A stretch of 64,000 nt of DNA from Hyperoplus lanceolatus (lineage: Eukaryota; Chordata; Actinopteri; Uranoscopiformes; Ammodytidae): positions 21,283,501 to 21,347,500 of the forward strand of contig CM049414.1 in NCBI GenBank assembly GCA_026929865.2. The letters are read 5' to 3'. This document shows, one piece after another, positions 1 to 46,733 of the stretch (its first letter is position 1; each line of letters begins with the position of its first letter). Position numbers and translations under genes: made by a program. The notes under the pieces are model-generated. The model searched no databases and was not told the origin of the DNA. It saw nothing but the letters and a program-made list of their open reading frames with translations.

Positions 1-2879
<2,879 letters not shown>

Positions 2880-3057
2880 TACAGTTGTGTTCAAAATAAT
2901 AGCAGTGTGTTTAAAAAAGTGAGGCAAGATCAAAATCCTTATCATAGCTTTTATTTCCAAACACGCAAATGCATTGGGGACATTGCACATTCTATTCCAA
3001 ATCCAAATATGAAGAAACTTGTCAAATGTTTCTTCATCTTTACAGAAAGTGAAGAAA

Positions 3058-3401
3058 GCATAAGGCAACATGACCTCTTGAAGTATTTAAATGTAACCAA
3101 ACTGATCCATGATCCATAGTATGAGAAACATCCCCATAACATGATGTCTGTGCCACCATGCTTCACTGTCTTCAAAGTGTACTGTGGCTTGAATTCAGTG
3201 TTTGGGGGTCGTCTGACAAACTGTCTGTGGCCCCTATTCAAGCCACAGTACACTTTGAAGACAGTGAAGCATGGTGGCACAGACATCATGTTATGGGGAT
3301 GTTTCTCATACTATGGTGTCGAGTCTATTTATCGCATACCATGGATCATGGATCAGTTTGGATACATTAGAATACTTGAAGAGGTCATGTTGCCTTATGC
3401 T
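3058..3401. repeat. inverted repeat made of transposase sequence
   Basis: Positions 3117-3194 are the exact reverse complement of 3236-3313 (78 bp, no mismatch). The pairing resumes outward: 3058-3117 is a close reverse complement of 3341-3401. The right arm carries about 27 extra bases (3314-3340). The 41-nt loop continues the antisense transposase frame. Sense and antisense pieces of the same transposase segment are therefore joined head to head and would form a long RNA hairpin if transcribed. Confidence 0.93.
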
Positions 3402-3719
3402 GAAGAGGAAATGCCCTTGAAATGGGTGTTCCAACAAGTCAACGACTCCAAACACACCAGTAAGCGAACAGGATCTTGGTTCCAGACCAACAAGATTAAC
3501 GTTATGGAGTGGCCAGCCCAATCCCTGGACCTTAATCCAATAGAAAACCTATGTGGTGACATCAAAAATGCTGTTTTTGAGGCAAAACCAAGAAATGCAG
3601 AGGAATTGTGGAATGTAGTCCAATCGTCCTGGGCTGAAACACCTGTTCACAGGTGCCATAAGTTGGTCGGCTCCATGCAACACAGATGCTCAGAAACAGG
3701 TTATACAACTAAATATTAG
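3236..3719 (+). pseudogene. Tc1-like transposase, C-terminal remnant
   Basis: The frame encodes Tc1 transposase hallmarks in order: VKHGGTDIMLWGCFSYYG, a QQVNDSKHTSK block matching the conserved catalytic-core segment (usually QQDNDPKHTSK, so the second catalytic aspartate appears replaced by Val), then WPAQSLDLNPIENL followed by the closing DIK segment that holds the third acidic position region. The N-terminal helix-turn-helix DNA-binding domain and first catalytic aspartate are absent. The frame upstream of 3236 is a foldback copy, not real coding sequence. It ends at TAG 3717-3719. Dead copy. Confidence 0.85.
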
Positions 3720-4016
3720 TTCAGTGATTCATAGGAAAGCTAAATCTTCATGCATTTTTCAGTTGATACAGTAAATGTTTGAGTTGTAAAGAAAAATGCA
3801 GACACTGCTATTTTTTTGAACAGTCTAATATTCCTTTTTCTTCACTTTCTGTAAAGATGAAGAAACATTTGACAATTGTTTCTTCATATTTGGAGTTGGA
3901 ATAGAATGTGCAATGTCCCCAATGCATTTGCGTGTATAGAAATAAAAGCTATTATAAGGATTTTGATCTTTACAAAAAATTTTAAACACACTGCTATTAT
4001 TTTGAACACAACTGTA

Positions 4017-4397
4017 TAATATCGTGTACAAGCGATATCAACATTTTAAAGGTTTACAAAAAGTTTTTCTAGTAGATACCAAAATTACCATTTTGATCCT
4101 GAAAATGGGCACAATATGCTTCCTTCAAAACCCCTGAACATTTTAAATCAGAATGATTTCTCTTTATACTCTGAAAAAACACAACAATTTATTCAAAAGA
4201 TTAAGAAGTGTAGGGGGAAACAATTCAGTTTTAATATATCGAATCCATTCTGGAATTATTATGAACAAATAATATAGATGTTATTATTTGAGCTCTTATT
4301 TTTTCAGTTGCCGATCTTATGTTTTCACATTCAGAAAAAGAGAAGCAAATCAGGTGTTTGGTGTTGTTCGCCCCTTCAAGGCAGCGCTGGTTAGATC
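4017..4397. other. spacer
   Basis: AT-rich sequence between the Tc1-like element and the next repeat. No open frame, RNA gene or repeat recognised. Confidence 0.5.
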
Positions 4398-10540: not shown

Positions 10541-13500
10541 GTAAGTACTGCAGCTTGAAATACAGTATTTACAAGTATTCTTATGAGGGCATATCAAGTC
10601 ATGGTCGTGTTGTTATAAAATAAGTGACAGTGTTGTTTCCACTGAGCGGTGCAGTTTGTTTCAGTATGGCACCGGCACACAATTATTTGCATTTCTACTG
10701 TCTAAATTTTGGAAGGGTACCAGAATAAGCGCACTGGGTCATACCTATTTTGTCACCCTTTTGTTGGGGTACCAAGTGTCTCCAGATGGTCCCAAACAGT
10801 TGGACCTACCTAGACTACACACATCAGACTGTTGATTGGTCTACAGAATCGTCATTTTTATCTTGTCAAGTTCTTCCTCTTAATTGAATTCATTGGCGAG
10901 CGACACTGTGTCCCGCTGCTATGATGTCATGAAAGTTACGTAGCAAACAGCAGCATTCGACATCCAGCATATATCCCACCTACCAATTACTAAACACAAG
11001 CCAGATCTAGCATTATCTTTTCATACCAACCCATATCTTACCAAACCGAACTGTACTCCTCAGTGGAAACTAGGCTTTAGAGACACAGAACTTCACTGTG
11101 TAAAAATGTGATACATAAGTTATATAAGAGTGTTTATGCCACAATTTTTACTGTTTTCTTACAGGCATTGTGTGCTGATAACGGAAGGCTTTGTGACCTG
11201 CGCGATGATAAATTTGCTGGCCAGTTCTTGCATAGACATTATCCAGACGTTTGCACAGGCCATCCTGGATGTCGTGCTGCCCCAGGTCTTGAGATATATG
11301 AGAATCTACGGCACCTTTTCTCCAACTATCCTCGGCCTAACTGAGGACCGAATCCACACCTACCTTGGGGATTCCGTTGAACAGGCGCTGGCTAACTTCC
11401 TGAAGATTGAAGTGCAGGATTCCATGGCAACGAAGAGGTTCTCCCAGTTGCTTTTGGGAAACATTTCAAATACGGTCAACTCAGTCTTGGCCTTGTTCAC
11501 TCAGACTCCCAACCCTGAATCCAGACTACCAGTGCTTTTTGTCAGCGGTTGTAAGACTTCCATTTGGGACCTTAGAGATATGGTTTGTTACATTGCCGTC
11601 TTACTGATGAAAGCCCTCCGAGCTCAACAGTCAGCCCAAAGATCGACTGAAGTCCAGGATAGCCAGACTGAATTATCCAAACCCTCTGAAGAAGTGGATT
11701 CTCTCGTGTTCTGTATAAATTCTAAAAATTACTTAAAACAAGTGGTGAAGGCTTACATCATTCGCATGGTGAAAGTTCTCAAAAGCAAAACTCAAATACC
11801 ACGCTGTGATGCGATCTCTAGAAACCATAGGGATGTCTGTATTAGAGTTGGCACAAACACACTCATTTTGACTGTGGAGGACAGTGAAGCAGATCGACAG
11901 AAGTCTGCCCCATCTTCCTCAAGTGGCTTGGACGCATTACCTGGTGCTTTGCCTGATAGAGAGGACACAAACTATGATTCTGAGAGATGTCCCTTCAATT
12001 CAGTTACAGTAATTGGCACAATGGAGGAACACTCTCATCATTTGGGTTCTTATGAAATGGAGTCCATCGAGAACATTGCACATGAACTGGTACAGGCCTT
12101 TTTGGAAGATGATCTCCAGGGTTCAGCACAGGCTGACTGTAGTCAAAGAGATGGTTGGCTGGACGTGGTTGACAACGTTAAATTAGGAGAATTCACAGAC
12201 AGGATATTTGCTTTAGTAATGCATGGACGTGACTACCAGATGCAGTTACTGCCTTTCGGAACAAGAATGTGCGACACTGTGACCTATGGAAAGCTGAGGA
12301 GAGAGGACGTCAGCGACTCAGGCATCGCCGCTCAAGCCCTCTACATGAGGACCGAGGAGGTTGTTGCTCGTTGTGCTGTGCAGGTTCTCCTGTGGTCGTC
12401 ACTGTACCCCGATGGGTCTGACTATCCATCTCCTCTCACCTCAGACGAATTGTCCGGTGAGCCCGACTATGTGATTGTACAAAGACATGCAGGTGGGGAC
12501 TGTACAGAAGTCCTCAATGGAACTCCTTCTTCTCCTCTTCACAATTCTGCAATGTTGAATCAAGAATCTGGTGACACATATGACGTAAGCTCTGAAGCGT
12601 CAGAGCCAACAAAGTCACAGTTGCTGGCGGGCATTGCACACACGTCCCTGCTGACTCTGCTGGTTGGGCAGATGCTCACTGCCATCGGCATCAGAAGCAG
12701 CAACCTTATTTTCGAGATGGTAAGGACAGCGATTGACCAACTTCAAGATGTGGACCCCAAGGTGTACGACTATTTCTATGCCTCCCTGATGGGTCACAGT
12801 TATAAAGACATGTACCAGACCGCCATCAACGACCTCCTGCTGGAGTTTGGTTCCATACAAGCGATGCAGGAAGTGTTGAGATCAGGGGATCCCCGATTTG
12901 AGGAGGCTTTTTTGAGAGCACTGAGGAAACACCTGGTAGTTCCTTTACCTCCAGTGCGTCATGCAGAAACATTTGGTTTCTTCAAGAAATTCAAAAGACT
13001 GCACTGCAAACAAACTAAGAAGGCTGACAAGGCCACCACTGTCATCTCCCTGGCCAGAGACCATGACGACGGTGAGTTACAGGGTAAATAACTCAACCAG
13101 GAATTAGCATGTCACAGGGTTAGCTAAACACTGTTCATTTCGGAGCTTCAGAATGAGATTTAAAAGGTGTAGTCAGCGATTCATAACAATGTTTTCAAAA
13201 TCACTTTGTCAAAATCAGTGAATATCTCCTCACGATTCAGCACATACAGTGTCATCAGGTAGCAGATTGTGAGGAGGTATTCACTGATTTTGACAAAGTG
13301 ATTTTGACAACAAAGGTTCCCCAGAATCGCTAACTCTACCCTTAAAAGCAGAACCACAGACCAGCCTGTATATCTCTGGATACGTCTGTTGCTGGCACCT
13401 TATGCTTGACATCAGCCCTGACCTGTCTTTCAGTTGTTTGTATCTGATTTAATTAATGGTGACAGTTTCAATCCTGAATTAATTTAGCTATATTGGGATT

Positions 13501-13862
13501 TGATTTGGAACACTGTGTTGAATTGTTTATTGAATTGCAATGCTACTTCTTATCATAATCCTATTTATTATTATTAAGTATATTTTCACCAACATAACAT
13601 TTTTCAGGGTGATAGAAGTGATGTTAATGAAGTGAAGTTAATGTTCCCAAAAATCAATAAGGATTTTTATTTATTTTATTTTACAGACAATTTGAGAAAA
13701 GAATCCCTGAAGGACCAAACAGAGCACTGCCAGTGTGCATTCATGAGCAAGATAGGTGCCTCTACCAGAAACATGTGCTCCTCCACAAGGAAGATGTTTT
13801 CCTCATTTGCTAAAACACTTGAAAGACCATTTGTGGCTTGCTGCGGCCCAGAAAGCCAGTAA
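10395..13862 (+). CDS. uncharacterised 742-residue protein, three coding exons
   Basis: I do not recognise this protein. Model: exon 1 10395-10540, exon 2 11165-13071, exon 3 13687-13862. Both introns (624 and 615 bp) are GT-AG, and codons are completed exactly across both junctions (CA|G giving Gln49; G|AC giving Asp685), yielding 742 residues and TAA at 13860-13862. The start is the first ATG after a plausible acceptor (AG 10373-10374). Residues about 50-95 are strongly hydrophobic or amphipathic. The middle (about 290-340 and 500-530) is acidic and Ser-rich, so probably disordered. A helical, leucine-rich block spans about 540-650, followed by a basic run FFKKFKRLHCKQTKK (654-668). The C-terminus ends in a Cys-Cys pair (736-737), which could be lipidated, but this is speculation. 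No signal peptide is obvious. The frame is intact and unlike any transposase or Gag, so I take it as a functional host gene, perhaps teleost-specific. Confidence 0.8.
11165..13071 (+). CDS. exon 2 (main exon) of the 742-residue protein gene
   Basis: 1907 bp, open throughout, residues 49-684 plus the first base of codon 685. The acceptor is TGTTTTCTTACAG ending at 11164; the donor is G|GTGAGT at 13072. Codon bias toward GC at third positions is visible compared with the surrounding AT-rich DNA. If intron 2 were retained, the protein would end six codons later at TAA 13089-13091. Confidence 0.85.
13161..13346 (+). mobile_element. compact foldback MITE in intron 2
   Basis: About 186 bp. The left arm, from TAAAAGGTGTAGTCAGCG through CAAAATCAGTGAATATCTCC, is repeated inverted in the right arm (GGTATTCACTGATTTTGACA ... 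CGCTAACTCTACCCTT). The arms cover most of the element, so the copy is nearly all stem. Same family as the copies at 9589, 29983 and 49935. Confidence 0.85.
13687..13862 (+). CDS. exon 3 (terminal) of the 742-residue protein gene
   Basis: Residues 685-742. The acceptor is TTTATTTTACAG ending at 13686. The segment is rich in Ser, Thr, Lys and Cys (six cysteines in 57 residues) and ends VACCGPESQ before TAA. Frame and phase fit exon 2 exactly. Confidence 0.75.
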
Positions 13863-14244
13863 TGTTTTTGGGGTGGCTATTGATATCGGAAGTTCCTTAC
13901 ACCTTCTGGTTTACTGGAGGTGAGGATCCAGTAAACTGAATGAACAGTGTGCACTTAATGTGCTTTAGCTGTTACAAGTACATTTATAGATCAGGCAGTT
14001 AGGTGATTGTAGTAACTGATTAAAACATTGAAGAATCATTGGATATCTCACCAATTATTTCATGATAGGTGGTTGCTTATGGCAGAATGAGTTGTTAAGG
14101 TTTGCTTTCAACACATTGAATTGTATTTTATTGCTCATAACTCTGCAGGCCGACAAGGGGAGAGAGGAGCAGCAATTGCTACCCTATCGGATTAGCCCAA
14201 GTGTACTGGCTCTTGCAATCATATGGATGCTTCTTTACTCACAA

Positions 14245-14250
14245 AATAAA
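14245..14250 (+). other. candidate polyadenylation signal AATAAA
   Basis: AATAAA about 380 bp after the stop codon of the 742-residue gene, in ACAAAATAAAATTGC. It is the first canonical hexamer I found on this strand downstream of the stop. Plausible 3' end, unproven. Confidence 0.4.
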
Positions 14251-14317
14251 ATTGCTTAAAGTTGACAGGCATCAATGTTTGTCCTGTATTGCTTCTATAT
14301 CACCTCAGTCCAACTAC

Positions 14318-14320
<3 letters not shown>

Positions 14321-14349
<29 letters not shown>

Positions 14350-14443
14350 TGTATGTATGTATGTATGTATGTATGTATGTATGTATGTATGTATGTATGT
14401 ATGTATGTATGTATGTATTAATAATAATAATACTACTAATAAT
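14321..14443. repeat. (ATGT)n tetranucleotide, then (AAT)n
   Basis: A perfect ATGT tract at 14321-14418 (about 24 units) passes into a short imperfect AAT run. It produces an artefactual Met-Tyr-Val-Cys open frame. Confidence 0.97.
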
Positions 14444-15879
14444 TTCATATAGCACTGCCTTGCAAAAGTGGCCTGCTAAATTAAAAGGTTCACATTAGCA
14501 CCGACCCCTCCCTCCCCAAAATATCAATTAGCACAGTGAGTTCAAGGCCATGGGCGCCCGACACAAACTGGAAAGTCCTAGATAAGATCATATTCAGTCA
14601 AGGAGTTGAATTTCAGTACACATTCTGAAAACTCTAGCAGCAGTTCAGAACGAACATCACATGGTTTTGGTTCCAGGGAGTATGACAAAGCATTTAAACC
14701 CTCATCATGTGGTATATGTAACTGTATAAGCTTTCACCATCAAAGGAGACAAAACAGGGAATGGTGGGGTTGGTCAACATATGGGTCTACCTGGGTGCAG
14801 TTACTTCAACTGTAGACAGTATCTGATGTAGCTGTGCGCCTCGGGTGATCACTCACACGCAGGTTCAACTTTGATGTTTGTGGAATGGGTACAAATGAGA
14901 AAAATTTGTTTTTACAGAAGTGTTAGATACCGTGCAAATGTTACGGTTTGATTTCATTTGGTAAAAATAGACAAAAAAGCATTTTCCCTTTGTTGCTGGG
15001 TCGTGAAGGATGTTCCCCATGAAAGTCACTTCAATCATAATGTGTATTCATTGAATCAAAACTCAAAGTTGCAAAGTGTGTGTTTGTTTCCATTAATATT
15101 TATTTTGCATCACACAAGGTGAAGTGTCTGAATGGAATAAAATCAGGATTGGTAAAACAAAATGTAAATACCTGCATATTTTTACATAGCATAGCACATA
15201 AAGAACCTAGCAATGTATGAATTAGTTTGCAGGAGTGGGTGGAAAAAGGTGACACTTTTCCAAAACAATAGAAACATTATGGAAAAAAAATATTCATAGA
15301 TTTGTATAAATTGCCATTTCAGAAGAATGAAAAACAACACTGACACACCCACATCATTAGCATTCATATGGATTCTTGATTCTTGGTGATTTTAATACTA
15401 GTCCTTTTAGTTGTAATGTCTCTTCCAAAACAAGAGAAACATTAAATAGCTTGCTGCACCACCATGTCTGCCCTGTCTAACAACTTATAAGAATAAATAA
15501 ACTTGATCTATGAAGCACTTATCAAACACACAACTGTGTACCTTCTTTCTCTCTGTAGTGTGAAAATGTCCATCTACCAGGCCACTGTCTGCCCTAGAGC
15601 ACTTTGCCACTTTCTCTATCGCTACAGCAATCTCATTTACAGCTGGGCTAATAGCCTTAGCTGCAGACAGCTAAACTATCTCTTTCTGCACACAGAGAAA
15701 CATTATCATTCAATTAAAGTCCTTTGTGTGCCCTACTTATTGGCATATAGAAATTGTTACTCCAATGTCATCTTTGCATAAAACCCTGAGGGAAATATCT
15801 GCCTGCTAAATGCTCTTCTTTGTTCCCTATTGAGAGTTGGACTATAATACAGTTAAAATGTGTGGTCTGCTCTAAGATT
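14444..15879. other. spacer
   Basis: No gene or named repeat recognised. The longest frame (15503-15781, 92 codons) has no splice or family support. Confidence 0.45.
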
Positions 15880-15960
15880 GCCACTGCAGACCCGGATTCG
15901 ATTCCCGCCCGCGGTCGTTCTCTGCATGTCACTCCCCTATCTTCCCCATTTCACCTCAGT
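15880..15960 (+). repeat. SINE fragment with B-box-like motif
   Basis: Contains GGATTCGATTCCCGCC, close to the Pol III B box GGTTCGANTCC, followed by CTGCATGTCACTCCCCTATC, a string common just after tRNA-like heads in teleost SINEs. The A-box side is missing or decayed. Confidence 0.5.
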
Positions 15961-16417
15961 CTGTTTTAAAGTCTGAACAGAACGACTTTTACAAAATGTT
16001 TCTATAATGAAACTAAGATGAAACATCATTCAAAAATGACCTTTTATATTTATAGACTGAGTTATTACATTGCTGAGTAGAAGGTGAGACCTTGGATCTG
16101 AGTCTAACAAACTTGCCTTTATAATATCTATATAGCAGCTGCATTGGACAGCGTGTGGACAGTAGTTACTCTCACTGTTTGCACAACACGGCGTCAAACT
16201 ACATATGCATTATCTAAAGGACGTGTTCTCTTTTTCTCACGCACATTATCACATTGGTACAAAGCATCTGCTCTGGCGATAGTTTGTTGTTTGCTCTGAT
16301 TTCCTAACACTTGAGGTGCAAATAAAGTGAAACGTGTGGATTCTATTCTTACTTTGGTACAAACAGTATTGTCTGTTCTGTTAACAGGCTGTCAGGTTTA
16401 TTGGATCAATGTTGCAC

Positions 16418-16682
16418 TTAAAGCTGGGGTATGTGATTTCTGATTGGTCAAAGTCAACATGAGCTGTACACTTTGACCAATCAGAGCGAGGCTCTGATTC
16501 TCTGTTCTTATTGGCTGTTGGGACTGTCCATTCACTTTGGCACGACTTTGTTGGTGTAGAGCGTGTCAGGGAGGGACCATAGGGGAGGGACCAAAGAGAA
16601 CAAGTGGAGCGGTTGAGGTATTTGGATTTGAATCTCTATCCCAACTGCCATTTTCTCCCCAAATCCTCCACCCCAGCTTTAA
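16418..16682. mobile_element. TTAA-site MITE in left palindrome arm
   Basis: Starts TTAAAGCTGGGGTATG and ends CACCCCAGCTTTAA. The opposite palindrome arm (RC of about 17660-17695) reads straight through the junction with TTAA at the matching site, so it acts as the empty site and supports insertion at TTAA. An internal inverted repeat (GGTCAAAG...CTTTGACC) is present. No coding sequence. Confidence 0.8.
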
Positions 16683-17785
16683 ATAGAAGTATAAGTAAAT
16701 CCACATGTTTAAATGATATTTATATGGTGTGTAATTTCAAAATGACAAGACTGGATCCCAGCAGTTTAAATAGTGTTATTGTTGGGCTATTACTAATGCA
16801 TTGCTGTCAACATTCAAATATAAAGAAAAATCGGACACGGCCATCATGCTTATGCCCATGTGCGCTAAATGATCTTAATGTAAGGTCAGACAGGAGGAAA
16901 GAAATGTTCGAATAAAAGAATGTAGAGAACGGCACCCTGGGAAGATGGGAAATTAATGTAGAACAGTACATCCCTGCTGGGCGGCTGCTCAATGTATCTT
17001 CTGACATGGCCTCTGAAATCTTGAAGGCGATAAATATCAAAGCGAATGCATAGGCCTGAAGGTGTATACTTATTTAAAGCTTCCTTGGCGCTATGAGGCG
17101 TGAAGCACCATTTGCCACATGTGAGTACAGAAGGACGAACGGTCATGCTATGGTAAACACTAGCAAATGCAAACAACTGCTTAGCTTGAGTCCAGATTCA
17201 ACGGTAGGAGACAGTTAGATTCTCATTTGAATTGAGCTGTTGTCTGGCCATGCAACAAATGTGTGTTTTCCAGAGTCCACTGCTTCTCATGATGTTGGTT
17301 TTTCTGTTTTTATATTTGTTTTTCACACAGAAGAAGTCATGTGCCATTTTTCTACACTAAAAAAATGTGACTGTTTAAGGCTCTCAGCAGGGATGTGTAA
17401 ATATCAACTGATTGCAGATATTCCCAGGGGGCCGCTCGCTACAATCTCTTTCTTACATAAATACATTTCCCCTGGCTGACTCACTTCACATTTAGATCAT
17501 GTAGAGCATATAGGCATAAGCATGTTGGCCACGACGGATTTCTTTATTTTTGAATGTCGACAGCATTAGATAACAGCAAAACATGAAGTCTACTTAAACT
17601 GTCAAAGCAGGGACCCAGTCTCATCCTTTTTAAATTTCACAACATCTAAATATCATTTAAACATGTAGGACTCTTAACTGCTTTTTTAATCCAACATTTA
17701 TCCAATAAACCTGACAGCCTGTTGACAGAACAGACAATACTGTTTGTACCAAAGTATGAATAGAATCCACACATTTTACTGTATT

Positions 17786-19354
17786 TGTTGTGGTTACTGA
17801 GGTTTAGACCCAAAAGCAGAATGCTCACTCCGGTAGTCAGTTTAGAACAAAGTTTATTGAGTGTGGGATCCGCAATAGACTGGCAGGACACAGGACGGCT
17901 GAGTGGCGTAGCGAGCAAGGACAGGTGGATATCCGGAACCCCCCAGGAGGCAACTGGCATGGAAGAAAAGTAGAGCAGAGTTACAACTAACTCAAACTGG
18001 AGAAGAGGAAAAACAAATAACCTAACCTCATACCGCTTTGGAATGAAGTACAATCTGGCGCCGAATGACTGGAGTCCAGAGGCTTAAGTAGAGAGGGTCT
18101 GATCAACGATCCTCTGCCCAGGAGTGCCGCCACGTCCACATGCCAACACAGAGACAAACAAATGGGAGAACAAGAGGAACAGACAGACAAGGGAAAACAA
18201 ACAACACACACAGAGGAGAAGGAGAGTCTGCCGTGCCGTGAGACCCCGTTTCCATTTGTCTTTAACATGTGGTTTTTGTCATCGGATCACATGTGGATAG
18301 CTCTAACTACAGTTGGAAACACTCTCAAGACGCATTGAAGACGTTTTGAGATCGGATCACAAAAACCACATTCGGAGGTGGTTTACGTCGCTTGTGTCGC
18401 GTGTGTCGCGTGTGTCCGCATTCAAATAATAGTGGAAACAGCAATGTGACTCTTGTCCACATTAGGGACCTCCTACTCAACTGCCTGAGCGGAAATACGT
18501 AGAAAATGCATCACTGGCGGCTGCAACTAAAGGTTTTAGTGTGCGCCCAGTTAAAAGTATTGCAAATGACAAGCTATCTGTCCTCTGTTTTTATTTAACC
18601 GAGTAAAACTGTGATAACACGGAAGTCGCTGATTTTTTTTCTGGCGCCCTGAAAGCTGCAGGCATGTGAAGCGCTAACTTCCTGTTCTTATGTGCTTCAA
18701 AATAAAGGTCAACTCGCGCTTGGCTAGTAACTAGGCTTTTAATGTGAAGGTGTACAGGAAATGTTCTATTTGCACAAGGAATAACTTAACTGCATTAATA
18801 TAGAAAGCCATGGACTGGTGGCGGTGACAAGAGATTATCAGAGGCAGACGTTAGAATAGCCACACTCAGCGAGCACACATCTTTCACCAGCCAAAGTGGC
18901 GTGATAACTTACTTGCCTAAGAGTCTTTACTTTTATATACTATCTATGATATTTCCCGCATTTGGAGAGTGTTAATGTAGAGCCCTCTAAGCAGTGTTGT
19001 GCATCGCTCCTCCTAGTCTAAATGAGACAGTCTATCTCGTCAACCTAGACTGGTAATTATCTTCGCATGTAATGCATTTTAATAGCAAATGGGATTAAAA
19101 CTGGGCACTGTACAGCCCTGTATGTTTACTTGTTTGAACCCCACCGGTTAAAAACACCAATGCAAACGGAAATCATGTAGGCCTGCGTGTTGATTTAAAT
19201 ACAGCGCGGGTAAATGGAATCGGATCACAAGTAGACAAAGAAGTCACATTTGAAAATACAAGTGGGAACACACGGACTGAGAGCTGGCCACCTTTGATCG
19301 GATTACCAAAGTCAGATGTTAAAGACAAGTGGAAACGGGGTCTGAGTCATGACA
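17786..19354 (-). mobile_element. solo LTR (minus strand) with nested DNA element
   Basis: Read on the minus strand it begins TGTCATGACTCA and ends CAGTAACCACAACA, with TG...CA termini and a perfect 5-bp target duplication (GTATT on the plus strand at 17781-17785 and 19355-19359). The left palindrome arm shows the unoccupied site. Without the nested element the LTR is about 465 bp. An AATAAA polyadenylation motif lies on the minus strand near 17858. No internal retrotransposon sequence remains, so it arose by LTR-LTR recombination. Confidence 0.85.
18242..19342. mobile_element. 1.1 kb DNA element nested in the solo LTR
   Basis: Terminal inverted repeats GACCCCGTTTCCATTTGTCT (left) and the complement of GACCCCGTTTCCACTTGTCT (right), extending imperfectly for about 50 bp (TTTAAC, then GGATCA-type motifs). 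Flanked by the 3-bp direct repeat TGA (18239-18241 and 19343-19345). No transposase open frame is seen; non-autonomous. Confidence 0.85.
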
Positions 19355-19740
19355 GTATTTGCACCTCAAGTGTTAGAAAATCAATGCAAATCCACAAACT
19401 ATCCCCCAAAGCAGATGCTATGATGCTATGTACCAATATGTTAATGTGTGTGAGAAAGAGAGAACACGCCTTTCGTATAGAGTGCATCTGTTTTATGACG
19501 TCATGATATGCAAACAAGTGAGATTAATGACTGTCCACACGCTGTCTAATGCAGCAGCTGTTGCATGCTGATCATAATGGATTATGCCACATTGCTTTTA
19601 CACCAATGACTCAGATCCAAGGTCTCACATCCTACTCAGCGTAAAACGATGCATACCATTAAAGGACATTTTTGAACGTGTGACATTTGACTTCATTCTA
19701 TAAACATTTTGTAGTTGGATAAAAGTATTTCTGTCGAGAA

Positions 19741-21990
19741 ATTAACACTGAAGGTATTAGTGCTGTTCCTGGTGGCTTGTCTGACACTGTAACACACAGG
19801 AAACCATGTCATACCAATGTGTGAGATTGCTTAAGTCCCTCTGAAGGTTGCTGGAGCAATTGATGTGATGTGTTCAAGGCCCACATGAAATTCAATTTGT
19901 CATGTGAGTGCAGCAGCCTTGACAAGGATGTGCACAGTTAGAGATTATCCACGAGACCTGCGCTGTATGAATGGGAGCACATACATGTGTATACTGAGGG
20001 TCCTGTTAAAAGACTTTTGGCACCACTTTACCATCATAATATCTGATCCTCTTGTTTCAATAAGTCTTAAATCAATTTATCGTATTAAAGCATAATTCAG
20101 GAGAGTGGTCATGAAGTAACAGACAGGTTAAACAGTTTAAATAAACCACTTTAGGAAACCCAAGGGAGGGATCGGTCTGTTTTCCCTCAAAATGAGTTAA
20201 ACGGATTATTTTCGGCTGTGAAAACAGAAAAGTGCCAAGCATTTCTCAGTTGCCTACCAATCCTCATCTCTGTTAAGCATTGTTAAGGACCACCCCTTTT
20301 CAGTTGATGATAGACTATTTGACTTGTTTATTCCCATCGGTGGAAACAAATTGGATTCTGTTCTCACCCATGGCTCAATGGTTTCACCTGTACCCCATGG
20401 GCAAACACGTTCATGTCAAAAAGAGATGGACTCGGGTTTCATTTGAGATACTGACAGGCTGTCTGGCTAATTACTGTATAAGATTATGGTCGACTCTCGA
20501 ATCTTACAAGGATTGAAATTCACTGAACAATTCTAAACCAATTAACTATGAGCGTGAAGGGGGAATACACACAGGGCCTCCCTGCTCTTTTCATGAAAAT
20601 ATACACGGGTCAGCAGACAGTTTCCTGGGCTCTAGTAATCCTGTGCGGCTGGTCTCATTTCAACGACTGGATTTTCTCCGGATATGTGATATTTCAGATC
20701 TAAATTAAATGTTTTATCATTGTTAAAAATGTAATTCAAAGAGACAAACCCAAGAATTCTGACTCTGAGTGACCCAAGACTGAACCTCCAAAAGACCCCA
20801 TTAGAGGTGTCGGCGGCAGTGCAGGCTGTGACAAAAGGGCGCAAAAGGACTTTGATGGCAGACGGAGCCAAATTCTTCCATGCACGATGCATCAGGTCTC
20901 CTCTCAATTCACTGGGGTCAAATAAAACTAATTCAGCTGCTCCCAGCTATAATCACACATCTAGAAGAAGGAGGATATGTTTTGTATTTGTTAACATCTG
21001 TAAAGTAACAACCATGCTTAATTTAAAATAGACAAATCAAATTGTATTACCGCAAAGGAATAGGCAGTTATTTCAGTCAGGTAGATCTATATGTAGTTAA
21101 CAGCAGTAGTGGATCCAGTGGTGACACCTGTGTTTACTTTCAGTTAAACTCCAAAACAAATTTTTTACCTGGGAATACAACTTAATAAAACCATTCAGAC
21201 AGGTGAGTACAGCAACACTCCCATGTGATGATGTATATAGTTTACAGATAGGGACATCAAAAATACCTTTTGACTATACATGTAGCATTGTCTGTGTGCA
21301 GTGTGCTAAAACTGTTTTCTCTTAACATTACAGTCTGTGTTTGTGGCTGCAGTTTTCTTTTTTGTAGCTGAAACATCTTTGTGTTGGTTGCCTTGGCGAA
21401 ACTTTATTCTTTTAGTTAGAATGTCTGCTGTGAAAAAAGATAAAAGTCCTAAAGACACTCATGACAACTGATAAGCTGCTTCAAAGAGCGAGCGGGTTCA
21501 CAACAGTCAACACAACCGCGTTGGTCACAAAGGACAGTGGTGTGTACATACTGTGCTAAGCTGTCATACTGTCATTGTGTCCTTTCTTTGACCAAATAGA
21601 TAGAGGCAGTCTGAGAGTCAAGAAGGATTTGCCTCAACAGAACTGCACATGTGAACAGTTGTTGATTGGCAGATGAAGCACCTGATGCCTGTTGCTTCAA
21701 CAGACACATGACATGACAGTTGCATCGCTGCACTCCCATCAGCCCTCACTGGCTGTAGCACAAAAAAAAAAACACAAAGAGAGATGGGCTCGGGTTTCAT
21801 TTGAGATACTGACAGGCTGTCTGGCATATTATAAGATTATGGTGCCTGTCCCATTTACATGTGTATGCATGAGGGATTATTTTAAAGAATTCAATGCAAT
21901 CCTTCCTGTACAAATAAGTCTGGTCGCAAATATCACCTAATTCACAAAGACCAGAGCTTATTGCAGTTACAGTGGTGCAATTCAACGCCA
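19741..21990. other. spacer with one direct repeat pair
   Basis: No gene seen. A roughly 45-bp string including CTCGGGTTTCATTTGAGATA occurs at 20432-20477 and again at 21781-21826, same orientation, with little similarity outside it. Frames in this stretch are short and unsupported. Confidence 0.5.
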
Positions 21991-22580
21991 TTAAAGGCCA
22001 GGACACACCAGTCCGACTACCCGAAAATGGAGACTGCCGATTCAGGGAGCTCCAGTCTTCCCGTCGCGGCCGAAAAAGTGCAAAGAACACACCAAACCGA
22101 CTGCTGACTTTCCGTACACTCTGCGCTTGCGCGGGATGTAATGTCTCCATAACAGCAGGCGGCGCTAATCTGTATTGTGGCCTGAAAAAATACGGAAATG
22201 ATGGGACGGCGAAAATACGAAATACGTATTTATATTTATGGACCATAAAGAGCACCATTTTTAGCAGAGAGTGTTGAGCATGGTGTCGAGCAGTCAACAA
22301 GGGTTGATGCATGTGAGTACTCGCTGAACGAAACAAACAAACACATTAAAACGATGGCTAACTGTTGTTAGCTGTTTGTGCTACCCGCCTCACTTCCGGG
22401 CTTCACTGATTCGCTAACCCTCCACAAATGAAATTGCTCCAACTGAAAGACTGCCCGCTCAAAAGAAGCCCGACGACATCTACGACGACCGATTTCACGG
22501 CACACACCAAACAGATTTGTGTCCCCGCCCCCTCCCGACTCTACGACAGCGATTATCGGGCCGGTGTGTCCTGGCCTTAA
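21991..22580. mobile_element. TTAA-ended non-autonomous DNA transposon
   Basis: Left end TTAAAGGCCAGGACACACCA; right end is the complement, finishing GGTGTGTCCTGGCCTTAA. A TTAA lies at both borders, consistent with TTAA target use. It is about 590 bp and GC-richer than its flanks. Open frames at 21972-22277 and 22368-22634 lie inside it and are not transposase-like. Confidence 0.8.
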
Positions 22581-25047
22581 GTCCCTTGTATTAAATACGC
22601 GCAATTTCTCTCTCTCTCTCTTTTTCTCAATCAATTAAATTTCAAATTAACACGCTTAATTGACATAACTGGCTGTGGAGATACATGCGTCATGGACAGT
22701 CATGGGAGCAATGTCAGAAAACCCCAAGAACGTTCCATTTCTTTTTTTTTAAACCTTTAATTATTTTTGAAGCATTCACGAGACAGAGACAAACCAGGCA
22801 GTGTTCGACCGCTGTTTGTCTCCTCTTTGGGCTGGGTCGAAATGTAATAAATACATTCAGGGAGAATTTTCTTTGATGTAAAGATGCCGCCAACTCAAAA
22901 CCACACTTTCTTGCTTTAGGGCAAGACCTGATCATCTGCCACAGACTGATGAATACATTAAAAAGAAAATGCGTCCCATAATCAGTAAATCTCATTACTT
23001 TTACTCACTGAAGCTTACTTGATGAAGGCTTGTGACGGGAATCTGAAGTGACAAGTGTTCTCTCTGTCTGTCTCTCTCTCTGTCTCTGACCTTTTCCAGG
23101 AACATTGCCAGAGGACCGCACGTTTTCCATAGGAATCATATGTCGGTACACCAACATTTGAAGCACATAGTTTAAATCCACTGATATTCTAAAACATGTT
23201 CCACCTCTTGACCATAAAGGAATTGCAACAGTTATTTTATTGCTCTTGATATTCTACGTATCTTGACCCTTCTGTTGTGTTCCGGTTGAATATGACCAAT
23301 TTGAACATTTTCTCTCTAGAAAAAAATTTAGTTAATTTATCGTTTGTATGCCCATGTTGTTCCCAGTCAAAATTGACCGGCTATTGGTAATGAATGGGGG
23401 TGATTACAATTACTGTATACAATGGTCTCAACCTATAGTACTTTGGACAAACTTAACCTGTGATGAACATAATCTTGACCCTGTCATCCCCAGGTTAAAG
23501 ACTCACTGGGTCTTTCCGGTACTCATGCAGTGCCAAACTATAGGTGTCATATTAGCCCTAAATGTAACCGTGGATTTCAATAGAAAGAACACCATTAACT
23601 TATTTAAAGCCACTAGCAGGCTATAATGTGGGTCTACCTCTTATGCATGTAATACACCTGGAGTTGCATTTTATGAATGAAAGGTGCTATACAGATTATA
23701 ATAACTGTCCGAGATAACTGGCCTAAATGAGTCACTTAATGATAGCCGTGCTGCAGAGAAAGAGCACTCAAAATGTATTGCAGTCCTTTGAAGTCCTTGT
23801 TTTTCTTTCTTTCTTATCAAATCATACAGGTCTCTGGTAACACAACTGATTATTTTGCTTATTTGCTATCATCTGAGGTCCACATTTTGATCCAGTTTAG
23901 GGAACAAAGGACAATGTCCCACTTGTTGCTACATTCAGTGGAATACATTACAAACAGTTTCCAATCTACCAACAGCATGAAAAGCTTTTATTTCTCAGTG
24001 TCAGCCACAAGCTTTCATCAGTCTTTTCAGCCTTGACCTTAATGAGAGTTCTTTTTCTCAGCAACACTTCAGGAAACAAAAGCAGTCTCACCATGTTTAC
24101 TCAAACAAACAAACAAAACAAACCACTGATTCCTAAATGCAGCTAGGTACTATTTGTCGAAAAAAACAAAAACAGAAGAGGGATGTTTTTGAATCACACA
24201 TTTCGGAAGTTGATCGTAACCCCTGTAGCTGCGGGGTTTATTTCAACAAAGGGACTGAGATTGTTTTGTTATTTTGCCAACTGACTGGAAAATTGCTTCA
24301 CTTTGGTCAGTAGTTCAATCTGCAGCAGAATTTGATGACAGCAGTGTTCACAGGAGCAAAACAAACAAACAAAATGGGAAAGAGCTCTAGTTTGAATGGA
24401 CCTCATCACACAGATTACAGAAAGCAGAGTCACCCTCTGGGGAGAAGCTGGCAGCAGCCGTCCTCAGCCCCTTCATTTCTTCCTGAAATACACTTCTTTA
24501 TCATATTCATAATCACAAATCTGCACGATCTATGCGTTCGCCCGGTGGCAATGGTGATTCAGTAGCTAGAATAACATCATTCACATTGATAACGGAGATG
24601 ATGGACAGCATTGTATCAGAGCCTACATCTCGACAGGGCTGATCCAAAGGAGCATTGGCAAAAATAGAGATAAAAGTGAAGGCAGCCAAACTAGAACATC
24701 CAAGAGAATGATCATACATGCAATTGTTTTTTAATGCCATTATCTGGTGAAAATTTACTATATGAGATTCAGTGATCTCGAGAAAACAAGAGGCTGTATC
24801 TGAGACGGAGACATAATGTATGGGAGTCTCTGTTGACATGTTTGTAACATTTCTTCAATTCAATTCCTGACCTCTTTTATTGTGTTTTGTTGACAACACT
24901 TCGGGTTGGAAACAGGTCCTTTATGTCCAAACCATCTATTCTCACTAAACAACACAGTGTGTGAGTATGTGTCAAGTCAAGGAAACTTACCCAAGATTCA
25001 ATACGTTAGTTTGTTTGATGGAGGATGGAGTGCTGTAGGCAGTTGTG
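22581..25047. other. spacer with simple-sequence and retroposon scraps
   Basis: CT-rich runs near 22606-22630 and 23060-23090. Around 23263-23400 paired motifs (TTGTGTTCCGG and GTCAAAATTGACCGG) resemble a common vertebrate interspersed repeat, but the boundaries are unclear. GAAAGGTGCTATACAGATTA near 23680 looks like a retroposon tail. No gene supported. Confidence 0.4.
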
Positions 25048-25957
25048 TGTCAAGATCCTGCCTGGGCCTCTTTGCCTCTGTGTTGTTTTTGCCCTTTGCC
25101 CTTTGTGTCTTTGTCTGGTGTAATTGCAGGGTTTGAGTCAGGTCCCAGCATTCACAGCTGCCATCAATCACTAATCAACTGCTCTTCATATACCCGGCCT
25201 GACCTTCCAGACACTGCCAGATTGTAGACTCAGGTTGCGTTCCGAATCGCATACTTTCTACTATATAGTATGTAGAAAAAAGATTTAGGATGTCCTGATT
25301 CTTGTGGCCAGATTTAGGATGGTTAGAAGTACCCGGATGTCCTACTTCATGCGGCCAAGATTGTTAGTGTTGAAAACTGCAACCTATTTGGGCGATTCTG
25401 ACCCACAATCCAGTGCGCACGTGAAGTGACATAACATCGACGAAGCCTCCATATGAAAACAAACGGGGATGCGACGGATATAAAAGCAAGAGGCAAGATC
25501 AAGGCGCAATGTTATGATGAAATAAGAGAGTAAAGTATGTCCCAATAGTATGCCTACTGCATCCTAACTAGATTCTTTTTATCGTCGGATGTAGTATGTA
25601 GAATAGGAAAAAGAAAGAGTATGCGATTCGGAACGCAACCTCAGTTTCTCACAGTCAGTCGCTCGCTCTTGATTACCTACCTGTTTGCATTTTGCCTCGT
25701 CCAAATTCCTGTTCTCTCTGCCACAGCTCCCCCGGCCTGACTCCAGCCAGCCAGCACCATCTCCCGGACCCCTCTGCCTGCTTGCTCTGGCCTACTCTCG
25801 CTCAGCCCCCTGGACATTCCCCATTGCTCTCCCCCTGGAGCCCCATGACAGTAGGATTCCCCTCGGATCACGGCCCTAACCGCCAGCGGATTCCTTCAAA
25901 ATAAACCTTAAACTGGTACTGTCTCCGCGACTGTGTCCTCCCTGTCCAGCCGTAACA
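25048..25957 (+). mobile_element. solo LTR interrupted by a MITE
   Basis: Starts TGTCAAGATCCTGCCTGG and ends CCAGCCGTAACA (TG...CA). Flanks are TTGTG and GTGTG, a one-mismatch 5-bp duplication. Minus the MITE at 25233-25640 the LTR is about 500 bp. An AATAAA motif near 25899 marks the probable R region. A related antisense fragment is at 51370-51492. Open frames inside it are fortuitous. Confidence 0.8.
25233..25640. mobile_element. MITE (GGTTGCGTTCCGAATCGC family), copy 1
   Basis: 408 bp with inverted ends GGTTGCGTTCCGAATCGCAT and complement, and a 3-bp direct repeat TCA at 25230-25232 and 25641-25643. It is very similar to the copy at 46326-46733 (about ten differences noticed by eye), so both inserted recently. 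Nested in a solo LTR. Confidence 0.9.
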
Positions 25958-31263: not shown

Positions 31264-31764
31264 TGTTACGCGCTCCCACCTTTCTGCTCCTCCCTCCTCT
31301 TCCCTCCTACACTCTCTCTCTCCCAGGTGTCCAGAGGCCTGATTGGCGGCAGGTGCTCCTAATTAGGTGGGGCTTAAAGGCGTGGCCTGCGCCGGTCTCG
31401 CTCTCTCTCTGCCTGCCTGGACGGTGTGCTGCTGACCTGCTGCTTGCTTGCTTGCGGTTTATTTAGTTTAATGGTTTACTTATGGGGGGGGGCTGCTAGG
31501 TTGTGTTCTGTTTATTTTATCGTAGTTTTTAGAGGGGCAGGGGAATAGTTTATTTGGAGGAAGGCCTGGGCAATATTGTGGTCCAACTGTGCCTCCCCAG
31601 GTCTTCCTCCCGTTTACCTCTTTTCTTTTGCAGCCTCCTTACTGAGTTGTTGTTTTGGGATTGATTTAATAAAGCACATTATTACTTTGATTCTTGGTTC
31701 TGTCTGGGTTACTTTTAATTGTTTACTGGCCGGCTGAACGAGCCTGGGATGGCCGGCCATAACA
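31264..31764 (+). mobile_element. 5' LTR
   Basis: 501 bp, TGTTACGCGCTCCC to GGCCGGCCATAACA, with 6-bp inverted termini TGTTAC/GTAACA-like. Contains TTTAATAAAGCACATT (polyadenylation signal of the R region). Nearly identical to the 3' LTR at 33776-34270: a few substitutions and small indels, mainly in simple repeats. This implies a recent insertion. Confidence 0.95.
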
Positions 31765-31982
31765 TATGGGCGCTCGTCCGGGATGATCCGGAATCATCCG
31801 AATTTTGTTTAGAGCACGGGCAGTTGTTGATTTAATGCTCTGCGCCGTGGATTTATTTTTGGTGGGCGGGAGTGCTGGGGTTGCTCCCGCGTTGCTGGCG
31901 TTGTAGTGTTTTGCTGTTTGTTCTGTTTCGCTTCGTAAGTAAGACGGAAAGGAAGCTGATTGGGGATCAGCTGTTTTTTGCT

Positions 31983-33455
31983 ATGGTGTTGATGGGGGGC
32001 GCGGCTGCCTCTCTTATGTCTAAAGGGGCGGGCTTTAGCGAGCAGGTAAGATTGAGTGAGATAGCGCTTGAAATGTATAAATTAGAAGTAAAGGAGAAAG
32101 AGCTTGAATTAAAAATGAAAGAGATGACTCGCCATTTTGAGGTGGAGACGGTACGTTTAAATGAGCTGGAGATGAGCGCGGCTGTGCCACAGCACGCAGC
32201 AGTTATACAGCCAGCTGAGCTAGATGTTACCGAACACCTTGATCTTATTCCGGTTTTCTCCGAGGAGGAGGTAGACAAGTTCTTTGTTCTCTTTGAGCAT
32301 GTCGCAAGTACTTTAAAGTGGCCTCGTGATTGGTGGGCGCTGGTGCTGCCGAGTGTACTCACTGGTCGGGCACAGGAGGTTTGTGCGATGTTGTCCGTTG
32401 ACGATAGTCTGGTTTTTGACAAAATTAAAGCTGCCGTGTTGAGAGCATATGGATATAAGGCTGTGTTTGTGAGAACGGTGTCACAAGAATGTCATGTTGA
32501 GAGCAATCATGGTGTCTCTGTCCAGTCGTGTAAAATCAGCACTGCTAGTGGGGCGGAGGGGAAGCACACCCGGGAGGGACGGGGCACGCGGGAACGTCCA
32601 GTGTGTTTCTATTGTAATAAACCGGGGCACATAGTCGCCAATTGTTATGCTTTACGGGGAGAAAACAAACCTGCTGTGAAGTCAGTGGGTTGTGTTAACA
32701 CTTCGAAGCCTGTGGCGGAGGTGGCTCCTGAGAGTCTGGAGTCGGAGCGAGACAACTATGCACCATTCTTGATGGGGGTCGCTGTGCCTTTAGAGCAAGT
32801 GGGGGAACAAGTGCCGTTAATCATTCCGAGGGATACAGCTGAGAATCAGTCATTTATTATAAGTGATGTCTTGCCTATATCTTGTGAGTCTGATGTGGAT
32901 TCCGGTGTCATTTTCCGGGGGTTTGAGACACAGTGCAGGGGCGCGCCAGGGAACCTTGAGTCAGATTTGGTCTCCGGTCCGGTGGCTGTTTGTCCCTACT
33001 TTCCGATTGAAGGTGTGTCTTGTTGTTTGGGAAGTGAGTTAGCTGGTGGTAAGGGGTTGGTCGAGCCTGAAGTGACGGCCGTTCCTATGGTTGCAGGGTG
33101 TAACGCTAGGTTGGCTCGGAAAAATCCTGGGGGGGGTTTTCACAGGTGCGATGACCAAACAGCAAGTAGTGAGCATAGCTGCTACACCGTCCTCTGGCAG
33201 GTTGTCCATTGGGGAGGGTGGAGGAGTGAGTTGCGCTGTTTCGGCGGAAGACGGGTCCTGGTCCGGTCGGTGTTAGGCCCGGTGAATTCTCCGAGGAGGG
33301 TTGTAAAGTGGTTGGTAAACCTGGCTGTGCCCGTGATGTGGCGCTGTCCAGTGCTGATACTGAAATACCTGTTGGGGCTCTGTCTGGTGCTGGGGGTGCT
33401 GGCGGCGTGGTGGAGACTGGTAGTTCTCCAATTGAACAGCATGCCTGGAGTGTGA
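31983..33455 (+). CDS. gag: Gag-protease remnant of the LTR retrotransposon
   Basis: 490 residues from the first ATG; the frame is open upstream to the 5' leader. A Lys/Glu-rich coiled-coil segment lies at about residues 25-65. A SCAN-like capsid block follows at about 80-160 (VDKFFVLFEHVASTLKWP...), as in gypsy-type Gag proteins that gave rise to vertebrate SCAN domains. A CCHC zinc knuckle CFYCNKPGHIVANC spans 208-221. Around residue 283 IIPRDTAENQSF sits where the aspartic protease active site (DTG/DSG) would be, with Gly replaced. Beyond about residue 330 the sequence is low-similarity, probably a junction left by the pol deletion. Gag packages the element's RNA into particles; this copy could at best be mobilised by enzymes supplied in trans. 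Confidence 0.75.
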   Translation: MVLMGGAAASLMSKGAGFSEQVRLSEIALEMYKLEVKEKELELKMKEMTRHFEVETVRLNELEMSAAVPQHAAVIQPAELDVTEHLDLIPVFSEEEVDKFFVLFEHVASTLKWPRDWWALVLPSVLTGRAQEVCAMLSVDDSLVFDKIKAAVLRAYGYKAVFVRTVSQECHVESNHGVSVQSCKISTASGAEGKHTREGRGTRERPVCFYCNKPGHIVANCYALRGENKPAVKSVGCVNTSKPVAEVAPESLESERDNYAPFLMGVAVPLEQVGEQVPLIIPRDTAENQSFIISDVLPISCESDVDSGVIFRGFETQCRGAPGNLESDLVSGPVAVCPYFPIEGVSCCLGSELAGGKGLVEPEVTAVPMVAGCNARLARKNPGGGFHRCDDQTASSEHSCYTVLWQVVHWGGWRSELRCFGGRRVLVRSVLGPVNSPRRVVKWLVNLAVPVMWRCPVLILKYLLGLCLVLGVLAAWWRLVVLQLNSMPGV

Positions 33456-33775
33456 GCCTGAACAAGCGGGATCGTCTTGGGAGGGAGGTGCCGTATGGGC
33501 TGGAGCATGGGGTTGCTGGGCCTGGTTTGAGCTCGTGGAGCTCTCCCTGTCTTGTGGTGGACAGGGCTGGTGGATCGGATCGTGTCTGCAAGAGGTTGCC
33601 GACTTTGTTTACGTGGTCTGTTTTGGGAGGCTGGTGGGCCGAGGTGGGGTGCGGGACTGCTTTGGTCGCGCTTGTGTGTCAGGGTCGGCGACCGTTATGT
33701 TTTTTTTGTGCTGGGTTTTTCTATGATAGGGGAAAGGGAAAAACCAATCTAAAAAAAACTAACTTAGGTTGGGGG

Positions 33776-34270
33776 TGTTACGCGCTCCCACCTTTCTGCT
33801 CCTCCCTCCTCTTCCCTCCTACACTCTCTCTCTCCCAGGTGTCCAGAGGCCTGATTGGCGGCAGGTGCTCCTAATTAGGTGGGGCTTAAAGGCGTGGCCT
33901 GCGCCGGTCTCGCTCTCTCTGCCTGCCTGGACGGTGTGCTGCTGACCTGCTGCTGCTTGCTTGCGGTTTATTTAGTTTTATGGTTTACTTATGGGGGGGC
34001 TGCTAGGTTGTGTTCTGTTTATTTTATCGTAGTTTTTAGAGGGGCAGGGGAATAGTTTATTTGGAGGAAGGCCTGGGCAATACTGTGGTCCAACTGTGCC
34101 TCCCCAGGTCTTCCTCCCGTTTACCTCTTTTCTTTTGCAGCCTCCTTACTGAGTTGTTGTTTTGGGATTGATTTAATAAAGCACATTATTACTTTGATTC
34201 TTGGTTCTGTCTGGGTTACTTTTAATGTTTACTGGCCGGCTGAACGAGCCTGGGATGGCCGGCCGTAACA
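33776..34270 (+). mobile_element. 3' LTR
   Basis: 495 bp, TGTTACGCGCTCCC to GGCCGGCCGTAACA. Matches the 5' LTR except for a few substitutions (for instance CAATATTG/CAATACTG and the penultimate CATAACA/CGTAACA) and short repeat-length changes. Preceded by the G-rich polypurine tract. Confidence 0.95.
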
Positions 34271-44856: not shown

Positions 44857-45243
44857 CCCTGCGTTACGAATCGCATACTTTCTACTATTTAGTATAGTGT
44901 AGAAAAAAGATTTAGGATTGTGGCCACATTTAGGATGGTTAGAAAGACCCGGATGACTACTACATCCGGCCAAGATTTTTAGTGTTGAAAACAGCATCCT
45001 ATTTGGGCGATTCTGACCCATAATAAAGTGCAAACCTGAAGACGGCGCCTCCATATGAAAACAAACGGGGATGCGACGGATACAAAAGCAAGAGTCAAGA
45101 TCAAGGCGCAATGTTATGATGAAATAAATAAGTAAAACGATGTCCCAATAGTATGCCTAACGCATCCTAACTAGATTATTTTTATCGTCGGATGTAGTAA
45201 GTAGAATAGAAAAAAGAAAGAGTATGGGATTCGGAATGCAGGG
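44857..45243. mobile_element. MITE (GGTTGCGTTCCGAATCGC family), diverged copy 3
   Basis: Inverted ends CCCTGCGTTACGAATCGCAT and complement (TTCGGAATGCAGGG). Internally aligns with the copies at 25233 and 46326 but is 21 bp shorter and more diverged. Confidence 0.85.
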
Positions 45244-46325: not shown

Positions 46326-46733
46326 GGTTGCGTTCCGAATCGCATACTTTCTACTATATAGTATGTAGAAAAAAGATTTAGGATGTCCCGATTCTTGTGG
46401 CCAGATTTAGGATGGTTAGAAGTACCCGGATGTCCTACTTCATGCGGCCAAGATTGTTAGTGTTGAAAACTGCATCCTATTTGGGCGATTCTGACCCACA
46501 ATCCATTGCGCACGTGAAGTGACGTCACATCAACGAAGCCTCCATATGAAAACAAACAGGGATGCGACGGATATAAAAGCAAGAGGCAAGATCAAGGCGC
46601 AACGTTATGATGAAATAAGAGAGTAAAGTATGTCCCAATAGTATGCCTACTGCATCCTAACTAGATTATTTTTATCGTCGGATGTAGTATGTAGAATAGA
46701 AAAAAGAAAGAGTATGCGATTCGTAACGCAACC
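46326..46733. mobile_element. MITE (GGTTGCGTTCCGAATCGC family), copy 2
   Basis: 408 bp, same length as the copy at 25233-25640 and nearly identical to it. Inverted ends GGTTGCGTTCCGAATCGCAT and complement. Flanking triplets TTG and ATG do not match perfectly. Confidence 0.9.

Follow-up and report, generated by a model that had tools for sequence, protein, structure and literature searches.

The window, a 64,000-nucleotide stretch of Hyperoplus lanceolatus DNA (C20:21283501-21347500 in an assembly of 806,742,258 bases and 527 contigs), contains a unit of approximately 760 bp in two inverted copies. The left arm lies on the positive strand and consists of an outer part, which includes a well-matched core (15960-16417), and an inner part (16683-16986), with a MITE on the inner side of the former. 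The right arm lies on the negative strand and consists of an inner part with most of the core (17378-17780) and an outer part (19355-19755), the first 5 bases of which are the second TSD copy of an LTR. In inverted alignment, the outer part and core of the left arm paired with 19755-19355 and 17780-~17690, and its inner part with ~17690-17378. The arms are separated by a spacer of 391 bp (16987-17377), which was unique in the genome search and had no significant central symmetry; its palindromy score was matched by 62 of 500 shuffles, leaving no inverted match above background at the centre.

With the two insertions cut out, approximately 730 bases of the arms could be aligned. Strict local alignment paired 15960-16979 with 19751-17385 over 826 columns, of which 614 were identities, 100 contained gaps, and 726 were ungapped, whereas a permissive aligner widened the pairing to 15953-16986 and 19755-17378. 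MAFFT alignment of 15978-16986 with its partner yielded 170 mismatches in 729 ungapped columns. Arm divergence was thus 15.4% by the strict local aligner and 23.3% by MAFFT. BLAST analysis of the uncut window returned three inverted arm pieces, with identities of 73%, 92%, and 73%. The pairing score was 605, whereas none of 200 dinucleotide-preserving shuffles scored above 31. When the core was left out, the outer and inner parts still scored 216 and 205, respectively, against shuffle maxima of 28. The strict alignment contained 37 transitions versus 75 transversions and 35 gap openings versus 112 substitutions. The inverted duplication is real. A preliminary description, made from the sequence alone, had proposed a palindrome at 15975-19740 with arms of ~750 bp that would pair once the insertions were masked; the pairing was confirmed, and its coordinates and arm length were correct to within ~15 bases.

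The left arm carries a TTAA-flanked MITE (16418-16682), 257 bp long with a TTAA on each side (265 bp in total). The element is short, with inverted ends, a TTAA target, and many copies, as is characteristic of its class. Among the best 40 of 1,785 candidates, relatives were found in 40 other places, 93 to 99% alike. TTAA was present at both ends in six of seven copies inspected, and the seventh had TTAG at one end. At the aligned point, the right arm retains an unoccupied TTAA.

The right arm carries an LTR on the negative strand (17786-19354) that begins with TG, ends with CA, and is flanked by the TSD GTATT at 17781-17785 and 19355-19359. Without the element nested in it, the LTR is 465 bp long. 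When 40 of 380 candidates were scored, members of its family were found in 39 other places at 70 to 88% identity. Eleven other copies were inspected; an exact 5-bp TSD was present in three and a 6-bp match in one more. Two relatives (L016 and L019) had the same tract flanking the LTR. A domain scan beside the LTRs of two relatives covered 8 of the 10 open reading frames of at least 120 aa, and two of the eight produced a match. One relative had integrase zinc-binding and core domains, and the second had a Tf2-1-like SH3 domain. These retroelement domains lay on the strand opposite to the positive-strand reading of the LTR in the window. Because integrase and SH3 domains adjoin the LTR in relatives on that opposite strand, the insert appears to be a Ty3/Gypsy-type LTR on the negative strand. 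We read it as a solo LTR since a single LTR lies between its TSDs. Each of the two stretches scanned for domains had one LTR match, with no two-LTR element seen. A search for a full-length relative with a shared TSD led to one pair on C1 (L044), two LTR copies ~2.8 kb apart, for which the TSD was not shared. The left arm has AATAA opposite the TSD, which reads AATAC in this orientation (one mismatch).

Inside the LTR lies a DNA element of 1,101 bp (18242-19342), with TIRs starting GACCCCGTTTCCA and the TSD TGA at 18239-18241 and 19343-19345. Its TSD length suggests a PIF/Harbinger-like element. Of 2,839 candidates, 40 were scored, and these included relatives in ~40 other places. Eleven copies were inspected, eight of which aligned end to end, and an exact 3-bp TSD was present in four of these eight. 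As proposed earlier, the TTAA MITE is confined to the left arm and the solo LTR with its nested element to the right arm. The further proposal that each arm displays the unoccupied site of the other also held, with TTAA in the right arm and AATAA in the left.

Several other features were noted in the window. Approximately 3 kb to the left of the palindrome, an open frame of 659 codons on the positive strand (11112-13088) resembles a long coding exon; it had no Pfam match at an E value of 0.01 and no PDB sequence match at an E value of 0.1. Direct repeats of ~500 bp, 98.2% identical, occur at 31264-31764 and 33776-34270, and the 539-codon frame between them had a zinc-knuckle match below the cutoff. 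This region (31264-34270) is probably a young, short LTR element. A frame at 2751-4022 contains a DDE_3 transposase match just under the cutoff (3120-3716), and inverted repeats that are 92% alike lie in the same region (2874-3057 and 3837-4022); presumably, it is a rearranged Tc1/mariner relic. Finally, a direct repeat of ~400 bp is present in three copies (25233-25640, 44860-45240, and 46326-46733), the first and third of which are 97% alike, while the second is ~85% like either.

The left outer edge of the palindrome adjoins a remnant of a tRNA-type SINE on the positive strand (15886-15962; the match in one copy reaches 15970). The remnant is without the 3' tail present in other copies, and a search for this tail elsewhere in the locus found nothing above shuffles. 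Elements of this kind are copied starting at the 3' end, so 3' truncation would be unusual. Since the tail-less SINE abuts the edge, the left outer edge has probably been rearranged, either at the duplication or through a later deletion. The remnant differed from the majority of five copies at 4 of 77 sites, with one letter found in no copy, a pattern compatible with arrival of the SINE either before or after the duplication.

The insertions could be ordered. Differences private to the copy in the window numbered 28 in 432 sites for the LTR, 18 in 1,031 for the nested element, and 2 in 256 for the MITE. In maximum likelihood trees of 12, 12, and 8 sequences, the respective terminal branches were 0.078, 0.011, and 0.008. 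For the arms outside the core, divergence per lineage was 0.164 by MAFFT (164 of 618 sites) or ~0.09 by the strict aligner, and the distance of the LTR to its relatives also shifted with the aligner. Since the divergence of both arms and LTR depends on the aligner, the ages are relative only. Both the empty site in the opposite arm and the relative ages place the duplication before the LTR, and the nested element followed the LTR in which it lies. The MITE looked youngest, with an age interval that overlapped that of the nested element. The order was, hence, duplication, LTR, nested element, and, probably last, MITE. The preliminary description had likewise put the duplication first and the nested element after the LTR; its placement of the MITE before the nested element runs against the clocks, within the overlap of their intervals.

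The two arms are not uniformly diverged. A 111-bp core of the left arm (16304-16414, positive strand; partner at ~17692-17780 and 19355-19376) contained 6 mismatches in 111 sites (95% alike) in the MAFFT alignment, compared with ~73% similarity at the 618 sites elsewhere. The difference was significant by Fisher's test (9e-8) for a block chosen after the fact, and a column-shuffle scan of the strict alignment, in which the choice of block was allowed for, returned a p of 0.0025. The core had no gaps, versus 35 openings in the remaining arms. The match was perfect at 16304-16324, the first core mismatch was at 16325, and the LTR site falls within the block. The right-arm LTR entered the core ~21 bp from one of its edges, and the left-arm MITE lies 4 bp outside the opposite edge. 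Most of the core was thus left whole in both arms despite the LTR and the MITE.

One explanation is that the duplicated DNA included a functional element of ~110 bp, for example a regulatory one, and that purifying selection has acted on both inverted copies within otherwise neutral arms. The contrast in mismatches and the gap-free core with its scan p value both point this way, as does the LTR clock, according to which the core should have accumulated at least ~12% mismatches (P = 0.015). Against this, the block was selected post hoc, and the P of the clock test rose to 0.19 when the lower limit was taken for the age of the LTR; this age may be overstated, as private differences can include some older than the insertion. 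The left-arm core also had no unusual fold on either strand (z-scores of 0.81 and 0.00), and the window contained no Rfam match at gathering thresholds. The similarity of the core hints at possible constraint on both copies, with a borderline test, and we regard the functional explanation as possible but rather unlikely.

The same two results led us to reject the idea that the core encodes a microRNA or another structured RNA. Ratios of substitutions and gaps were likewise set aside as a test of constraint. The LTR in the window differed from 11 copies by 200 transitions and 261 transversions, with 170 gap openings to 461 substitutions; the arms were slightly poorer in transitions, a contrast weakened by the non-independence of the pooled LTR pairs.

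Alternatively, arm-to-arm gene conversion or template switching could have re-homogenised the core after the duplication. Such events leave locally raised identity between arms, which is the pattern seen here. However, the LTR site lies within the well-matched block. A single conversion tract covering the whole block would therefore need to predate the LTR, yet the LTR looks older than the core. It is possible that the tract was limited to 16326-16414, as only 17 bp lie beyond the TSD. We regard conversion as rather unlikely. Both conversion and a functional core are compatible with an origin by duplication. If the core were conserved in other fish, the locus would represent a small noncoding element that was duplicated in inverse orientation and kept twice.

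We evaluated whether the unit belongs to a repeat family. Queries with 15975-16417, 16679-17300, 19355-19900, and 16950-17780 matched only themselves and the partner arm, and no second copy of either arm or of the spacer was found in the 807-Mb assembly. The genome search passes over very common words and scores the best candidates only; its sensitivity was demonstrated to 73% identity, since the same searches recovered the partner arm at that level. Copies as diverged as the partner arm would, therefore, probably have been detected, while much older ones might be missed. The longest direct repeat at the outer edges was 5 bp, a length reached by 216 of 300 shuffles, and an old TSD may have decayed. 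Beyond the outer edges (13000-15990 versus 19700-23000), the best inverted match was 25 bp with an E value of 0.029 and was not collinear with the arms.

These results bear on the suggestion in the preliminary description that the palindrome may itself be a giant foldback transposon. The locus does have the shape of such an element, with long inverted arms flanking a spacer, and as a foldback or long-TIR transposon it could be the sole surviving recognisable copy of a family extinct in this genome. However, no piece of either arm or of the spacer has a second copy, the outer edges have no TSD above chance, even if an old one may have decayed, and the arms are most alike midway along their length, not at their tips. 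We consider this origin improbable. The single copy, the lack of a TSD above chance, and the end of homology at the edges therefore favour a local duplication over a transposon family in this genome; a local duplication is also how a single locus was to be interpreted according to the same description. A family whose other copies were lost or have fallen below ~70% identity may nevertheless be an alternative to a single duplication event.

Pairs of one element in opposite orientation often mimic palindromes, and two independent insertions of a low-copy element could, in principle, account for the arms; the genome searches returned no third copy, which makes such a coincidence very improbable. 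A false inverted join in the assembly, which can also produce palindromes, has a negligible chance of explaining arms that differ at 15 to 23% of aligned sites (depending on the aligner) and carry different insertions, each with its own TSDs.

We conclude that the locus is likely a one-off, local, spaced inverted duplication that was later scarred by transposons. In this scenario, ~760 bp of unique DNA would have been copied once in inverse orientation, leaving the 391-bp spacer unduplicated. The most likely route would be priming from a folded-back strand at a DNA break or, with the same end product, template switching at a stalled fork. Both the route and any designation of one arm as the copy are interpretive. 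The longest inverted word common to the spacer ends, searched within 31 bases of each end and scored without a shuffle control, was 4 bp. Thus, no fold-back seed is visible at the spacer ends; such a seed may have been lost to decay and could hardly have outlasted the divergence seen here. The arms would then have diverged by decay, and most of the duplicated DNA presumably has no function. A Ty3/Gypsy-type LTR retrotransposon subsequently entered the right arm, where a solo LTR is left of it, a TIR DNA element entered that LTR, and the TTAA MITE entered the left arm, probably last. The low divergence of the core is a point against plain neutral decay from one duplication.

One duplication and three insertions at this locus order themselves, as the arms serve as mutual empty-site controls, so that arm decay can provide a check on the insertion clocks within a single locus. 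As things stand, the locus is a local curiosity.

Human inverted-duplication chromosomes, as described in PMC3907307, likewise consist of an inverted copy and a short unduplicated spacer, and the fold-back inverted duplications described there have unique DNA between their copies. The arms in the window differ in their interstitial position and their length of under 1 kb; at 391 bp, the spacer is shorter than the 766 to 70466 bp given for the human cases, and its ends show no visible inverted microhomology. Foldback transposons such as Tm1, in the description of PMC3169594, share long inverted arms and a spacer with the locus in the window, which is, in contrast, single copy and has no end TSD above chance.

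The closest comparison in terms of stability is with inverted Alu pairs and long inverted repeats. According to results reported in PMC10164571 for double-stranded DNA in yeast, an increase in spacer length from 12 to 20 bp reduced inverted-Alu recombination ~40-fold, and the instability of inverted repeats was gone at 75% homology; in long single-stranded DNA, repeats are unstable even when they are spaced and divergent. The preliminary description had found the survival of the palindrome surprising. This argument is weak, as a 391-bp spacer and diverged arms fall within the range reported there as stable in double-stranded DNA. Because the double-stranded instability described in PMC10164571 is tied to short spacers and high identity, survival of the palindrome would be unremarkable and appears to require no special cause. 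Inverted homologous arms are common to both systems, and spacer length and divergence stabilise them; the arms in the window, unlike those of Alu pairs, are unique DNA rather than copies of a repeat family. Spaced inverted duplications are a well-known kind of rearrangement, of which the locus in the window is a well-preserved but ordinary example.
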